Origin: Hysterium pulicare CBS 123377
Taxonomy: Eukaryota; Ascomycota; Dothideomycetes; Hysteriales; Hysteriaceae
Direction of reading: 5' to 3'
DNA: 64,000 nt
NCBI GenBank assembly: GCA_000467715.1
Contig: AJFK01000004.1
Coordinates: 1 to 64,000, forward strand
Part shown: piece by piece, positions 34,608 to 41,826 of the stretch
How positions within the stretch are numbered: the stretch's first letter is position 1
Layout: the number at the start of each line of letters is the position of its first letter
Position numbers and translations under genes: made by a program
The notes under the pieces: model-generated
Databases searched by the model: none
What the model saw: the letters and a program-made list of their open reading frames with translations, nothing else
Told to the model about the DNA's origin: nothing

Positions 34608-35672
34608 CTATGACATTGCTTGACCACCACGAGCGAGACGACGCAAGCCCAGAATTGCAACCTCATTTCCCTTTAGCACCTGGACCTTGGAGTCGCTTCC
34701 CGTGGCGTTCACCTTCTTTTGAAGTTCTTCTTTCTTGCGACGTTCGCGCTCCTGGTCCGCACGCCACTGAGCATCGCGGCGCTTCTGGTTCACAATCTGC
34801 TTCTTGCGCTTTGCCTTATCCTCTTCCGCCTTCTTCTTCTCCCAAGCAGCCTTGCGCTCCTTACGGGTCTTCTCGTGCTCCGCGTCAATATCAGCCATTG
34901 CGGATTTCAGGGCCGGAAGCTGCTCGATGAACCGAGCAATGTACGCTGGAAGGCGGCCCAGGTAGCGCTCATGGGCGTAAAAGTTCGCGACAGACTCGAA
35001 GAGTGGATCATCCGTGTTCTTGGATCCAATGACAGCCTTTAGCTCACCGAAAGTAGGTGACTTGGCCAGCTTCTCGCCGATTTGACGCATCACACCAGAG
35101 GCGTAATGATCCATTTGGAGAGCATGAGCTGCTTCGTACACCTTCAAGCAATTGAAGAATCCCGTGGTGGTACGAGAAAGGTTGTACGTGCCGACGGTGT
35201 TGCAGGTGCCCACAAGCCAGTTGACAATCTGCAAAAGAGACTGCTTGGTTGCAGCATCCCAATTGAGATGGACCTCGTTCGAGAGAGGATTCGCGGTGAA
35301 GTGTCCCTGGGCGAGAGCTGACACCGCCATCAAGGCGCGCTTAGGGACTCCAAAGACATATGGGTGTCCACCGACGAAGATGGTGACGCGAGGTCCCTTG
35401 ACCATCTCCTGTCGCTCGGTGCGTGGGAGCTCCAGAAGGTTCATAATAGTGGCTTGTTCCACCTTCAATACTTCGATGGAGCCTTTGAGACCACGTACAG
35501 GTTGCTTAGAAGGTGCAACCTGGTTGGCTGGCGGAAGCTTAACGGTTGGTGTGGGAGCCTGCGATTCGGGAGCTTTGGCCTTTTGGCCGGCGTGCTTCTT
35601 GGCTGGCTTGGACTGTCTTGCAGGAGCTGCGGGTTGGTTGGTACGAGCCATGTTCGCGGTGTTGGAGTTCAT
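34608..35672 (-). CDS. BTB/POZ-like family protein (copy 2)
   Basis: The protein has 354 residues from ATG 35672 (MNSNTANMARTNQPAAP); the open frame upstream to 35795 lacks an ATG. Residues 1-70 are Ala/Pro/Lys rich. Residues 80-185 resemble the BTB/POZ fold of fungal proteins: GPRVTIFVGGHPYVFGVPKR then ALMAVSAL, a strand-helix start, and LQIVNWLVGTC. They are followed by a helical region with FNCLKVYEAAHALQMDHYAS and DDPLFESVANFYAHERYLGR, then a long basic coiled coil (about 285-335). It is the best-preserved relative of the decayed copy downstream. Partners are unknown. BTB domains mediate dimerisation or Cullin-3 binding, but the divergence here precludes a specific call. Confidence 0.8.
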   Translation of the reverse strand: MNSNTANMARTNQPAAPARQSKPAKKHAGQKAKAPESQAPTPTVKLPPANQVAPSKQPVRGLKGSIEVLKVEQATIMNLLELPRTERQEMVKGPRVTIFVGGHPYVFGVPKRALMAVSALAQGHFTANPLSNEVHLNWDAATKQSLLQIVNWLVGTCNTVGTYNLSRTTTGFFNCLKVYEAAHALQMDHYASGVMRQIGEKLAKSPTFGELKAVIGSKNTDDPLFESVANFYAHERYLGRLPAYIARFIEQLPALKSAMADIDAEHEKTRKERKAAWEKKKAEEDKAKRKKQIVNQKRRDAQWRADQERERRKKEELQKKVNATGSDSKVQVLKGNEVAILGLRRLARGGQAMS

Positions 35673-36840
35673 GTTCTGAAGTTCTGGGTGTGGAATCTTC
35701 GAAGTTTTCAGAGAAGCCGTGATGGTGGAGATGTAGTAGTACAAGTTCGGTAGAAGTAGAAGTTCGAGAAAGGCAAGCGTTGTTGAGTATCGCAATAGAA
35801 AGTAAAGCGAGTTGATGAAGAAAAGAAGACACTACAGACAGGGAGGAACGGGTTTATATAGGATTCCAATCCAGTGATTCCACTCACAATCAACTCCTAA
35901 CTGAGCGTAAATCGTGAGTTCACAATCCACTACTTCAAAACTTAGTACATTCACAACACCACTTGGTGCAACTAACACCATAGAGTGTGAATGAAAGCAT
36001 AAAAGGCCAGACTTACTTACGCTCGAGGAGAATGTAGCCAAACAGTCGCACATTGTGAACACGAGATTCAAGAGTAAACCGTGAATCGTGACTTCACAAT
36101 CCACTACTCCAAACTTAGTACATTCACAATACCACCTAACACCATACATTCAACACTTACCCAAACAAAGTAACAAAAAGTTCTCTTACCTGGCCTAAAC
36201 AATGGAACGTTCAAGCCCAAGAGCACAATCGCACATTGTGAAGCCATAATGCTTCCGATAAAACGGCCATCAGTTGCTAGCTCCTTTTCCATCTGCACGA
36301 CCATAGTTTGTGGGGGTTCTGGAGATATACAATAGTTGACAAATAATATATTCAGGAAGGGATTTGTAGATATAGAGTTTCTTTAGTGGTAGGTATACAT
36401 GATTAAGAGTTAGGGTGTTTTAGCGACGAGAGGTTCGAGAATGTGGATAAAGAGGGCGAAGAAGATGTATCCATGGGTCGATATGTATAACGAGCTCAGA
36501 AGGGACGTTCAAAGCAATCAGTATTAAGACATGGGCAGGTAAGTTTGACATACCCCTGACTTTCCAGAATCCGGCATGTCTCATAGGTGAGTTTTATTCA
36601 AACTACGACGCCTACGCTAGCAAACACTGTGTCGAATAACGACAAGCAAATCCCCACATACAAGCGCACAGACCCCATACAAACTCTCATATCCTATGAA
36701 CCTTGTCATTCATATCCAAGCAAACAAGCAACTTACCTCCCTAGTTCTCTCTTTCCTCCACAGCCCTTCCTTGACGCTACGAAGGTTAATCCAACATCGA
36801 TGGTCTCCCAGTATCAATCCACATCCCGCACCCGCACCCC
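35673..36840. other. Intergenic region with a degenerate duplication
   Basis: No supported gene lies here. It contains the duplicated promoter-side block listed separately. Short frames across 35832-36304 follow from this repeat. Confidence 0.55.
35911..36242. repeat. Degenerate direct duplication of about 175-180 bp upstream of BTB-like gene
   Basis: A block of 62-72 bp occurs at 35911-35982 and 36085-36146. Shared core segments are ttcacaatccactact and acttagtacattcacaa, and copy 1 carries an extra 10 bp. A second shared word, tcgcacattgtgaa, follows each block at 36046-36059 and 36229-36242. Order and spacing (174 and 183 bp) point to one old tandem duplication. GTGAA and TTCAC arms flank a short centre in the repeat, so it may carry a dyad site. 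Confidence 0.75.
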
Positions 36841-37680
36841 TCACTTCCCGCCCCTCATCCTCCTCGCCTCCTCCTCCGTAACAACACTAATCTTCGCCCC
36901 AACCCTATTCCCAAAATTAAACCCATCCGCCCTAGCCTTCGCCCCCTCCCTCCGCTCTCTATCCGCCTTCCTCTCAATCCCCTCCTGGATCCATCTCTGA
37001 TTCCGCTGATCGATCTCCGTTAACACGCCCTTAAACACCGGGAAACTTTCAAGGTACTTTTCGAAGTGTTCTGGGTCCGGTAGCTGGCCTTTGAACCTCT
37101 TATTGGCGTATGTGTGTGCGAGGTGCCGGTATACGAGATCGTTTGGGCCCGTGTGCAGGAGGAGACCGGTTAGTTCGTGGTATTCTAGTAACCGGGAGGA
37201 TATTGTGTCGCGGAGATAGCCTAGAAGCGGTTGCGCGGCTGTATCCATAGCGAGCGTTTGCATCGCTTGATACACCTTCACATTCTGCAACCAGTTGTCG
37301 CGGACTTTGAAGGCGAATGCTTTGGCGCTGAGGCAGGTCTCGCGGATCCAGTCGACGATGGCTTGAACGGCGGCGGGGTTTGCGGCTTCGGCGCAGAGGT
37401 TGAGAGTTGAGAAGCTGGCGAAGTGGGTAGAGGCGATACAGGAGAGGGCTGTTATGGCTCGTTTGGGGACGGTGATGTATTCGCCTTTTCCCTTTTCCGG
37501 AGACGAGAAGTTGAAGAGGGCAATAGTAACGCTTTCGCCTTCTAGGAGGTTGCGCCGAGCTTTGAGGTCTAGAGAGCGGATGTCGATTGGGCCTTGGTCC
37601 GTATCGGGGTTAGTAGCCATGTTAGGTTTGGTCTGGTTCAGCGTAAGTTTACGCTTGTGTTTACGCCTGTGCTTCGGCAT
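36841..37680 (-). CDS. BTB/POZ-like family protein (copy 3)
   Basis: The protein has 279 residues from ATG 37680 (MPKHRRKHKRKLTLNQ); a second in-frame ATG at 37620 (MATNPD) is possible. The N-terminus is strongly basic. The domain shows ESVTIALFNFSSPEKGKGEY, ITVPKRAITALSCIASTHFA and VQAIVDWIRETC, then NVKVYQAMQTLAMDTAAQPL and NDLVYRHLAHTYANKRFKGQ, which align in order with the neighbours at 34608-35672 and 38528-39712. The C-terminal basic helix is shorter than in copy 2. Confidence 0.75.
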   Translation of the reverse strand: MPKHRRKHKRKLTLNQTKPNMATNPDTDQGPIDIRSLDLKARRNLLEGESVTIALFNFSSPEKGKGEYITVPKRAITALSCIASTHFASFSTLNLCAEAANPAAVQAIVDWIRETCLSAKAFAFKVRDNWLQNVKVYQAMQTLAMDTAAQPLLGYLRDTISSRLLEYHELTGLLLHTGPNDLVYRHLAHTYANKRFKGQLPDPEHFEKYLESFPVFKGVLTEIDQRNQRWIQEGIERKADRERREGAKARADGFNFGNRVGAKISVVTEEEARRMRGGK

Positions 37681-38527
37681 TGGGACAGCAGATGGTAAAT
37701 AGCGAAGTTCCGAGAACAAGAAGGACTTTGGAAGATTTCGGAATGTTTGAGCTTGGTGGTGGTAGAAGTGGAGAGTTCCTTTGAGAAAGAATGAGAGGGA
37801 AAGAGGTGCTTTCTACACCTCCGGAAGATGGGAATGAGCGTGAAAGTGAACGAACGTAAGGCGTCATGATGAATGCATTTGTGACTGAAGCAAAGAGGTG
37901 GTGAATTTTAGATTAACCAGATGAAATACTGTGCCGCTACGAGGTCTAGGGAGACATCTCAGAGCGCGGTCCATGCTCGAACCAACGTGAATGTCGAGGC
38001 AGTGACTTATCTTTTGTCTTCCAAAGCATGCGGGAAAGTGAAATGCCTATTGATAGAACAGTAGTCTAGGCTGAACGGCTGCGTCACTTCGTGAGGGTTT
38101 CTTCATTGAAGCGCCACCGCTGGTAGAAGTTGGAGTTTCTGCGTGAAACGTAGGCAAGCCAAGATATCTCAGGGTGGTTAGGAAGCTTGATGATAGAAGT
38201 AATATCGAAGGATTTCGTGTATAGTGCGTGTAATGAAGGCAAAGAAGATGTTGGACAGTTGGACAGACTAAGCGAAAGCAGCTCCCACGGTTAGAGTTGG
38301 TTATGTAAGCGCTTAGTCACCCTGCATCACGTGTGCTGCGACCTCCCGAAGTTGCTGGCAGTGTTGGTAAGGACGGATTTTATTAGATCACATCTCATTG
38401 CCATACAGAAACCGAAAGTTATTAAGTCAATGGAGCGACCCATTCCCTCCTAGTTACACCGAGCTTCCAATCCCCATCCGAGACATCCTACTCCCATCCA
38501 AACCAGCCGTACAAGAATCTTCGAGCT
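37681..38527. other. Intergenic region
   Basis: No supported gene lies here. It contains the promoter of the downstream minus-strand BTB-like gene. Confidence 0.55.
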
Positions 38528-39712
38528 TTACACATCATCCTGGTCAGCATCAAGCTCCTCAAGAGCCCTTTCCGTCAATTTCAGCCGAGGGTATCCCCAA
38601 ATCGAACCCGTATCTCTCCCCAGGTCTATATCCGCTGCTCGAGGAGAAGCAGAATCAGCCTCATCGAATACCGCATCCACAGGAAATCCTTCCAACCATT
38701 CCCTGATCATCACCGTAACCTTCCAAACTTCCACAGGTGTCTGCCCATGTCCATGGTCCCATTCACCGCATTCATCACTACCATTGCACAGATTCAAGGC
38801 TCGTACGGCTCCGTGGAGTTTGGTCTCTAGCTCCGAGTTGAGGGTCGCGGGGATCTCGAGATGCGGTGTTATGCAGGCGGTAGCGTCTTCCTCGTGACAT
38901 GCTTCTGTGTTGTCATCTTCCTCTTCTTCGGCCATCTTGTTCACCTCCGTCTCTGCCTCCTTCAGCAATCGCCGCATGCGCTCATACCTCAGCTTAACGC
39001 GATTAGGTCGGTCTCTATTATCGATCTCCGCCAAAAGTTTGACGAAATACGGGAATGGGTTCAGCACTTCATTGAACATTTCCCAATCCGGAATCTCGTT
39101 ATTCCAACGGGCGTCAGCCAGGGTATGCGCTAGATGTAGGTATATTGGATCATCCGTTTTCATTGCTGGGCCCAAGTATTCTACAATGCAGGTGGTTTCC
39201 CAGGATGCAAGATCTTTGGTGGAAATGTATTCGCTTAGATAATGGCGTAATGGGAAGACATCGAACTCCATACCCAGCGTGACCATGGCTTGATACGCCA
39301 TAACATTGCGCTCGAAGTCGTCGAGAAGCTTGAATGGGATGTATTTCTTGGCAGCGCAAGTCTCTTTGGCCCAGTGGCAGATCGAAGCGACGCCATCGTA
39401 TGTCGTGTTCTTAACGTAGAGTTCAAAGTCCGTGGATGCATGGTTCTTCAGACGACGGTTCGCGAGTGTGGAAATAGCCATGAGCGTTCGTTTCGAGATG
39501 ACGTTGTAGAGCTGGCCTGTTTGATACCTCACTGGATTCCATCCTACGAAGAGAATATCAAGCTTAAGTCCAGTCAGGAGATGAACGCGTTCCTTTCGGG
39601 TCAGTTTGCGGAGGTCTACTACAGGCTGATCGATTATTGTAGTGTCGGATGTGTCGAGACTATTGGCACCAGTACCAGTTGATGGCCCAGTTGATGGATC
39701 ATTTGATGTCAT
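38528..39712 (-). CDS. BTB/POZ-like family protein (copy 4)
   Basis: The protein has 394 residues from ATG 39712 (MTSNDPSTGPSTG). The shared core reads LKLDILFVGWNPVRYQTGQL, NVISKRTLMAISTLANRRLK, ICHWAKETCAAKKYIPFKLL, VMAYQAMVTLGMEFDVFPLR and DDPIYLHLAHTLADARWNNE. After a coiled coil and acidic tract (EEEEDDNTEACHEED) it has a unique 120-residue C-terminal extension with WDHGHGQTPVEVWKVTVMI and a tail ending LKLTERALEELDADQDD. It is the most diverged and longest of the four local copies. Confidence 0.75.
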   Translation of the reverse strand: MTSNDPSTGPSTGTGANSLDTSDTTIIDQPVVDLRKLTRKERVHLLTGLKLDILFVGWNPVRYQTGQLYNVISKRTLMAISTLANRRLKNHASTDFELYVKNTTYDGVASICHWAKETCAAKKYIPFKLLDDFERNVMAYQAMVTLGMEFDVFPLRHYLSEYISTKDLASWETTCIVEYLGPAMKTDDPIYLHLAHTLADARWNNEIPDWEMFNEVLNPFPYFVKLLAEIDNRDRPNRVKLRYERMRRLLKEAETEVNKMAEEEEDDNTEACHEEDATACITPHLEIPATLNSELETKLHGAVRALNLCNGSDECGEWDHGHGQTPVEVWKVTVMIREWLEGFPVDAVFDEADSASPRAADIDLGRDTGSIWGYPRLKLTERALEELDADQDDV

Positions 39713-40137
39713 CTCAAGGTTCGCCTTGTGAGGTATATCGGCCCAGTGACTTAGTTGCGATGGCGTGCACGGCCAAACACGTATCTCCCGATACCAGCCG
39801 TAGAATCCAACGATGCAAGTGTACTAGTAGTTGCGAGAAGCTTCGAGGGATTGAAGACGGAAGTTGTTCACTACAATGGAAATGGTGCGAAGTGAAAAGC
39901 TTGCATATCCTGGATAGGACGTTGACGATGGTCTATGGAGTGAAAGCATTGCTTGGCCGCGGATGCTGTCGGTGTTCACACCCTTTTTGTGAATGGCGAA
40001 GGAGGTTGTATATCGTAGAAGGCCCCTAGATCGCGGGAGGCTTCTTAGAATGACGAAGGAATAGTAAGCAACAAGTGTATACAATTTTTCGTAGGACACT
40101 CACATCCATGTTGAAGAGACGAAACTGCATTAGTTTT
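39713..40137. other. Intergenic region
   Basis: No supported gene lies here. The frames at 39649-40099 overlap and show no domain. Confidence 0.55.
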
Positions 40138-41286
40138 TCATTCGACACGTTTACCAAGCATCCATCGACCCGAAGTTGCAAGCAAATCCCTCAAAACATC
40201 TTCAACTAGGAATGCATTGGTAGTATGACCTACGCCAGGAAGTTTCGTGATATGTACTCGGTTTGACTTTTGTTGCTTTAACCTCAGGTACATATCCCTG
40301 CCCAGACTAAATGGGGTATTTTCATCCTTGTCTCCATACCAAAGATGAATTTTGCTCGCTTGTATGTCTCTCAGATCAAATCCCCATGGGTTGTCCAAAA
40401 CGTGGCATTCATCAACATAAGCTTGCGCCCCATGCATGAATACATTCTCATAAAGCTGAGCAGGGCTCTTGATCCTATAAATAGCCTTGATAATATCTTC
40501 ACTGAGATGAGGCGCTAGTCAAGGGAAATCGTCCACAAATCCTGGCGGTATGGGTGCTTGCCGCGCCTCGCGTCTCATGTGGTAAGTCATTCTATGATAC
40601 TCAAATCTGGGCCAAGACTTGACCCAACGACCATACTTTTTTTGATCCGGACTCAAATCCTGCTTCCCAAATTCTGGTGGGCCAGAGCCAGCAGACACAC
40701 TCGTTCCTTTCAGCAGATCTGTGGGCAAGCAGTGCGCACACGCAAGTGCATACGGCCCTCCAGCACTGGAACCAAGAACGCGAAACCCATTTCGCTTTGG
40801 CCTACCATTCGTTTTCATCTCTAGAAATCCAAGATGGCTGGCTAAACGTAGCACGTCATCTGGCCAATCCAAAAGCTTCCTCCCAGGTTTGGGCGTTGAA
40901 AGTCCAAAGCCAGGCCTGTCGACGGCGATTATACAAGCATTGAGTTTTAGGCCAGCATCGTGGTAGAGACGACCGGCCAGCCGACAGCTGGGAAGACCAT
41001 GGAAGTAGAAGACAGGAGAACCATTTGGAGAGCCATAGATCGCATAACCTAGCTTGCGACCTCCAGGAAGATCCATGGTAAGGCATTCATTGGGTTCAAC
41101 TGGCCGTAGACATCGAACAGACCATAGAACATGTCGACGTTGGGAATCCGAGAGGCTGTCCCAATGCGATTTGATTGCTGGAGGGGTTCGGATGCTTTTC
41201 TGACGACGCTCTTTAATCGTGGAGAAGGAACGGGCTGGTGGGTGGAATAAGAGACGAAGAGAGAAAACGGTCCTGTTCATAGGCAT
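40138..41286 (-). CDS. Alpha/beta hydrolase with in-frame TGA CTAG (candidate stop readthrough)
   Basis: From ATG 41286 (MPMNRTVFSLRLLFH) the first product is 255 residues. The N-terminus is Arg/Ser-rich with RSFSTIKERR, like a mitochondrial presequence. FYFHGLPS (oxyanion region), AVDRPGFGLS and LGSSAGGPYA (nucleophile Ser174) are typical alpha/beta-hydrolase landmarks. Codon 256 is TGA (40521-40519) followed directly by CTAG. The same frame continues for 126 codons to 40138 with the rest of the fold: LWYGDKDENTPF (candidate acid) and LPGVGHTTNAFL (catalytic His). UGA CUAG is the documented high-readthrough context in fungi and animals. No in-frame intron removes the stop. The alternatives are a young nonsense mutation or a sequence error. 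The C-terminus (GKRVE) is not a peroxisomal signal. Confidence 0.8.
40515..40521 (-). promoter_or_regulatory. Candidate translational readthrough site TGACTAG
   Basis: On the minus strand the stop TGA is followed by CTAG, the UGA CUAG heptamer known to promote ribosomal readthrough. It separates two halves of one hydrolase fold in the same frame. Confidence 0.55.
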
Positions 41287-41826
41287 AAAATCACGAAGAA
41301 ACTGCAATTGCAGGATTTGATGGGAACGAGAGCGAGAGAAAACAAGAATGGAATGCTAAAGGTTGAAGCAGCTCGAGAATGAATGAATGAATGAAGCTCC
41401 TCAAAATTCTGAAGGCGCCACAGCAACAGAAGGACGAAAGAGTAGATAAGGCGACTCGTTTGGGTGTTGTAGGACGGAATGTAGTGAGACAGAGAGAGGC
41501 TGGAGGGAGTGTGTGGATTGAGGACGCGTGAGGTGGGGTGTCGGATTTATGCAGTGCGCTTAGGTACCGAGACAACGTATCTCGGCCAGGTGCAGGTGGT
41601 ACAGCATAAAGAGTCACGTACAGCGAGAGAAAAGAAAACAAACACGGCGACACATATATATTTAGAACACAAGCACATCGTGTCATCCCTACTGAGCCAA
41701 ATGCGCGTGTCCAAACCCAAGCAAGATCCAATCTAAAAGCAAATGTCCAAGTCCTCCCTTCCAACAGGTACATGTACTGTACAATGCCACGCAAGACATT
41801 TTTGATATATACTACGTCCCGTCCAT
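41287..41826. other. Intergenic region
   Basis: No supported gene lies here. A short (gaat)n microsatellite is visible near 41379-41394 in the promoter of the hydrolase. Confidence 0.6.

Follow-up and report, generated by a model that had tools for sequence, protein, structure and literature searches.

A lone in-frame UGA in a CUAG context splits an otherwise intact alpha/beta-hydrolase frame of a dothideomycete fungus

Leaky termination at UGA followed by CUA has been described in fungal, animal and viral genes. In Ustilago maydis, UGA CUA is enough to cause readthrough, and CU forms the core of the signal; it is found in tpi1, rpe1 and art1, so that TPI and RPE are among the readthrough-coded enzymes, and the extended enzyme gains a PTS1 tail (accessible text of PMC4207609). 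The mammalian genes OPRL1, OPRK1, AQP4, MAPK10 and MDH1 carry the heptamer UGA CUAG, which is efficient in vertebrates: readthrough in human cells was about 31% for OPRL1 and about 3.5% for MDH1, and the motif is conserved through vertebrates in OPRL1, OPRK1, AQP4 and MAPK10 (accessible text of PMC4132726). For LDHB, readthrough is given as 1.6% (accessible text of PMC4359377). Viral type II readthrough uses UGA CGG or UGA CUA, often together with an extended stem-loop, and the viral stems typically start about 8 nt behind the stop codon (accessible text of PMC3542737). A search of titles and abstract openings, in which few subscription papers were covered, found no paper on a readthrough alpha/beta-hydrolase from fungi.

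We analysed a window comprising the first 64 kb of contig C4 in a genome of 37.2 Mb and 596 contigs. The host is a dothideomycete fungus, because EFR3 encoded in the same window best matches Lepidopterella palustris (82% over residues 1-500), followed by other dothideomycetes. Three neighbouring minus-strand ORFs of the window (34608-35795, 36841-37719 and 38528-39712) have a similar layout and a common KR-x3-A-x-S-x2-A stretch, and they look like a tandem family, perhaps BTB-like. The hydrolase frame (41286..40138) begins with ATG at 41286, has 382 codons when the first TGA is counted under the assumed standard nuclear code, and ends with a TGA at 40140..40138. The first-pass annotation had described a single frame of 382 codons with a lone TGA at codon 256 followed by CTAG, with the nucleophilic Ser before the stop and the Asp and His after it. 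This description holds on the minus strand, which had not been named: no other in-frame stop precedes the final TGA, and the three residues are Ser174, Asp321 and His354. The features are:

40522..41286, minus strand: first part of the hydrolase, codons 1-255, recognised by Pfam Abhydrolase_6 (33.7 bits, cut-off 26.3) and by homologues
40519..40521, minus strand: in-frame TGA, codon 256, read from the sequence, in a low-confidence cap loop of the structural model
40515..40518, minus strand: CTAG directly 3' of the TGA, read from the sequence, a known leaky context (accessible text of PMC4207609 and PMC4132726)
40507..40515, minus strand: 5' arm of a possible 9-bp RNA stem starting 3 nt after the stop, noticed post hoc
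40425..40433, minus strand: 3' arm of the same possible stem, with 73 nt between the arms, noticed post hoc
40138..40518, minus strand: second part of the hydrolase, codons 257-382 plus the final TGA, recognised by homology and conserved columns

The first part holds the oxyanion HG, the nucleophile Ser174 (GSSAGGP) and the start of the cap, and the second part holds the remaining cap, Asp321 (WYGDKDENTPF) and His354 (GVGHTT). Together they contain all that is expected of an alpha/beta-hydrolase (Abhydrolase_1/6), namely the oxyanion HG, the fold and the Ser-Asp-His triad, and the triad is complete only when both parts are read together. The earlier view that the short form is catalytically dead is sound, since neither the Asp nor the His lies within the predicted 255-residue fragment. 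By eye, the N terminus resembles a mitochondrial presequence (basic, with the first acidic residue at position 26 and an RSFS motif), and the product is probably mitochondrial. The stop codon and the next three bases are the same as in the Ustilago genes, and all seven bases are the same as in the mammalian genes. The first-pass annotation had called UGA CUAG an established strong readthrough context, and the reports on Ustilago and on animals bear it out that UGA CUA(G) is leaky. As in described readthrough genes, the sequence past the stop is also coding-like, as judged from homology and kept residues. The likeness to Ustilago ends at the C terminus. There, an enzyme gains a PTS1 tail, whereas here a fragment with an incomplete active site would be extended by 126 residues that supply Asp321 and His354. 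The extended protein ends with ..GKRVE, and comparison by eye with the PTS1 consensus reveals no evident peroxisomal signal in KRVE, in agreement with the first-pass annotation.

Homology on the two sides of the stop connects the parts. The first part alone finds its best homologue, P0003, with an E value of 1.6e-35, and the two parts joined by X at the stop find the same protein with 2.8e-50 over 81% of the query. The second part alone has 36% identity to P0003 over 66 residues; it has no match in Pfam, and the first part has no family in NCBIfam. The part behind the stop is thus more than a chance frame, because both parts find their homologues in one set of proteins, and the alignments argue that both parts belong to one protein, or once did. 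Among 161 homologues, the column of Asp321 contains D in 158 and that of His354 contains H in 158. The query keeps all 23 columns before the stop and all 3 after it that are conserved in at least 95% of these homologues; for columns conserved in at least 90%, 33/35 are kept before and 7/7 after, and for at least 80%, 42/45 and 9/9. By this measure the query does better than 35 to 60 of the 161 homologues, which retain fewer of the conserved columns. Codon scores do not discriminate, with means of -0.005 for the conserved part before the stop and +0.018 after it, against a median of +0.064 for long ORFs. An AlphaFold2 model has the alpha/beta-hydrolase fold (mean pLDDT 79.4, pTM 0.77) and puts residue 256 into the loop that joins two helices of the cap, where mean pLDDT is 65, 55 and 65 for residues 241-250, 251-260 and 261-270. 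The closest solved chain, 9wlv, an alpha/beta hydrolase from Microlunatus sagamiharensis, shares fold and triad with the two parts taken together, at 27% identity, and a sequence comparison with the first part likewise puts it first.

Taken as a whole, the cheapest account is a young nonsense allele whose context is leaky by coincidence, and we give it slightly better than even chances. According to this account, a single recent nonsense mutation would have arisen in the gene of a probably mitochondrial hydrolase, and the sequenced strain would carry it as a fixed or a segregating allele. The stop would have fallen into a variable cap loop, with the UGA CUAG context arising by chance, and the main product would be the inactive fragment of 255 residues, from which Asp321 and His354 are missing. 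Full-length enzyme may still be made by a few per cent of ribosomes through insertion of a near-cognate amino acid, presumably with no selection for the leak. The account is favoured because the stop is the only lesion seen and the conserved columns are kept, as a young mutation predicts. If 0.05-0.12 indels are assumed for each substitution, and if 72% of the changes that hit 26 invariant residues are taken as lesions, a further lesion should be visible in a frame free of selection by about 0.013-0.019 substitutions per site (95%). Since the conserved residues are intact on both sides and no further lesion is present, the stop would be very young, or the full length would still be under selection. 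The gene has no signs of RIP (TpA/ApT 0.57). No relative with more than 54% identity appears among the best 120 of 1793 and the best 120 of 2199 matches in 5.8 billion proteins, and the nearest other loci in the own genome have 53% and 52% identity, by which the gene appears to be single-copy at its level of similarity. As EFR3 has a match with 82% identity whereas no listed relative of the hydrolase exceeds 54%, the pattern fits a gene that is lacking or lost in relatives. Such a gene, not visibly kept by sequenced relatives, fits loss as far as predicted proteins tell. Against the nonsense allele, the gene itself has no decay, and its absence from relatives is seen in protein collections only.

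The leaky context also weighs against a chance nonsense mutation, because TGACTA makes up only 0.47% of stop trinucleotides (99 places). The complete TGACTAG makes up 0.11% (23 places); both counts were made on both strands of 264 kb of the own genome. The first-pass annotation had considered a random nonsense mutation in exactly this heptamer possible but unlikely. Its possibility stands; its rarity was overstated, and the heptamer is not very rare here. A fungal genome may carry tens of nonsense alleles, and about one of them in a TGA CTAG context per several genomes would not surprise. A coincidence becomes more credible because so many nonsense alleles are possible and because this one was singled out while the whole genome was being read. 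Pairs of ORFs split by one stop (at least 200 open codons, one stop, at least 100 open codons) number four in the 264 kb, too few for a rate: two look like introns by eye, one looks antisense and one is the hydrolase.

The exact match to UGA CUA G, sufficient as UGA CUA in Ustilago and efficient as UGA CUAG in vertebrates, is what first speaks for programmed readthrough, in which the UGA would be selected and read at a set rate by means of CUAG, perhaps with the help of a stem behind the stop. The active site would then be finished by readthrough alone, and the enzyme dose would follow its rate. We regard this explanation as unlikely, though as the likeliest of the alternatives. The conserved residues are intact on both sides of the stop, and a residue inserted there should be tolerated according to the model, as the stop lies in a flexible loop with the low pLDDT values given above. 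Known cases set against it are of another kind: those of Ustilago in the accessible text of PMC4207609 add a PTS1 tail and none of them restores an active site, which favours the nonsense allele. Programmed readthrough would also mean that a catalytically powerless product is made most of the time, and no orthologue with the stop is known among the listed protein matches.

Genes of the same genome for enzymes that use readthrough in other fungi served as a control. PGK and GAPDH are readthrough-coded in other fungi, and TPI and RPE are so in U. maydis as described above. None of the five own genes (PGK, GAPDH, two for TPI, and RPE) ends with TGA CT. The ends are TAG ACT for PGK, TAG GAA for GAPDH, TGA TTC for one TPI, TGA ATC for the other TPI and TGA GAG for RPE; the likely end of the second TPI, VVDIINANTA followed by TGA ATC, lies beyond an intron placed by eye. 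These gene ends speak weakly against use of such readthrough by the host, and, together with the lack of an evident PTS1 at the C terminus of the hydrolase, they favour the young nonsense allele. Two side observations concern these control genes. The main frame of RPE (L041) ends with GKL, which is PTS1-like without any readthrough. In PGK (L013, minus strand, about 1465-1475), a GTAAGT that resembles a splice donor overlaps the coding end, SSK-TAG, and alternative splicing of the 3' end is conceivable.

The possible RNA stem behind the stop is a hint in the other direction and disfavours a plain nonsense allele. Positions 40515-40507 can pair with 40433-40425 in 9 bp, one of them G-U. Together with UGA CUA, such a stem would resemble the viral type II signal, from which it differs in its spacer of 3 nt instead of about 8 nt, in the lack of covariation evidence and in its location in a cellular gene. 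Of 1500 windows that follow other TGA triplets, 9 have an equally strong helix with its start within 9 nt; among 920 coding windows the number is 2 to 8 at window lengths of 109 and 130, and with three null models equally strong stems arise in 4, 21 and 26 of 4000 synonymous resamples. At window lengths of 60 and 80, too short for the stem, the target is ordinary among coding windows. The overall fold is ordinary as well: energies equal or better were found for 34/200 shuffles and 76/600 TGA-following windows, although by resampling the energy is low (3 and 6 of 400), and for the 81 nt around the stop, too, 109/200 shuffles fold as well as the native sequence. Rfam has no match in 39900-41500. 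The stem test was made only after the fold had been seen. About 0.1-1% of controls reach the strength of the stem, but it lies closer to the stop than the usual 8 nt or so, and it supports readthrough as a hint. At 3 nt, much of it would probably have melted by the time the A site holds the stop codon. A fuller version of programmed readthrough is somewhat less likely again. In this version, the active site would be completed only by UGA CUAG readthrough in the middle of the cap, the stem would co-stimulate it, and termination fidelity, tuned for example by oxygen or nutrient stress, would set the amount of active mitochondrial hydrolase.

An assembly or base-calling error in a gene that is really intact would explain the lack of decay, and a single base in an assembly of 596 contigs would be enough. 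The sequence carries no sign of an error, and hitting this exact context is as unlikely for an error as for a mutation; we give an error only a small likelihood. Two further explanations, an intron and RNA editing, had not been raised by the first-pass annotation beside its nonsense and readthrough options, and both proved to be unlikely. If the stop were inside an unrecognised intron, it would be spliced out. Introns of about 51 nt, judged by eye, seem to account for two of the three remaining stop-split ORF pairs, and the GT candidate with the most convincing branch site is GTATCA..CTCAG of 99 nt, in which TTGAC is followed by 16 nt ending in CAG. We nevertheless consider an intron very unlikely, because the cap has the length typical of the family when the stop codon is counted. 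The distance from Ser174 to Trp301 (the conserved W of PWGF) is 127 with readthrough, and 117-163 (median 129) in 154 of the 161 homologues, the other 7 having been dropped for a missing anchor residue. Removal of the 99-nt candidate gives 94, and any in-frame intron of at least 45 nt between the two residues gives at most 112. The family HMM scores 276.5 bits for readthrough, against 268.6 for the best GT donor and 270.3 for the best GC donor. GTATCA occurs in 0 of 82 candidate joins collected crudely by splice motifs from the own genome, a noisy set of which a stricter version yielded only 2. Of 90 scored GT/GC..AG candidates with a product open for more than 300 residues, none stands above readthrough in the ranking, as listed for the best 40. 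Separately, the in-frame stops of L019 (C4:84342) and L031 (C596:57142) lie by eye inside short introns of about 51 nt and mimic stop-interrupted genes.

A-to-I RNA editing in sexual tissue could convert UGA to UGG, similar to the correction of the PUK1-like pseudogenes in Fusarium. Mid-domain stops are repaired in this way in filamentous ascomycetes (accessible text of PMC4817773 and PMC7306014), and PUK1 likewise is a fungal gene that is intact but for a stop within its catalytic domain (accessible text of PMC4817773). The stop of PUK1 is UAG, whereas here a UGA places the A in GAC, and not in a favoured triplet (UAG or UAA). At edited sites of F. graminearum, U precedes in 85.74% and G in 4.98%, and GAC is among the rarely edited triplets (accessible text of PMC4817773). 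A review names Fusarium, Neurospora, Sordaria and Pyronema, and its accessible main text does not contain the word Dothideomycetes (PMC7306014). Editing is therefore extremely unlikely in our estimation.

A young nonsense allele, if this account is true, would be ordinary, yet it would show how leakiness can persist in a null allele. Should the stop instead prove to be conserved, readthrough would switch an enzyme on instead of re-addressing it, and fungal pseudogenes with a single stop would be worth sorting by their stop context before they are discarded.
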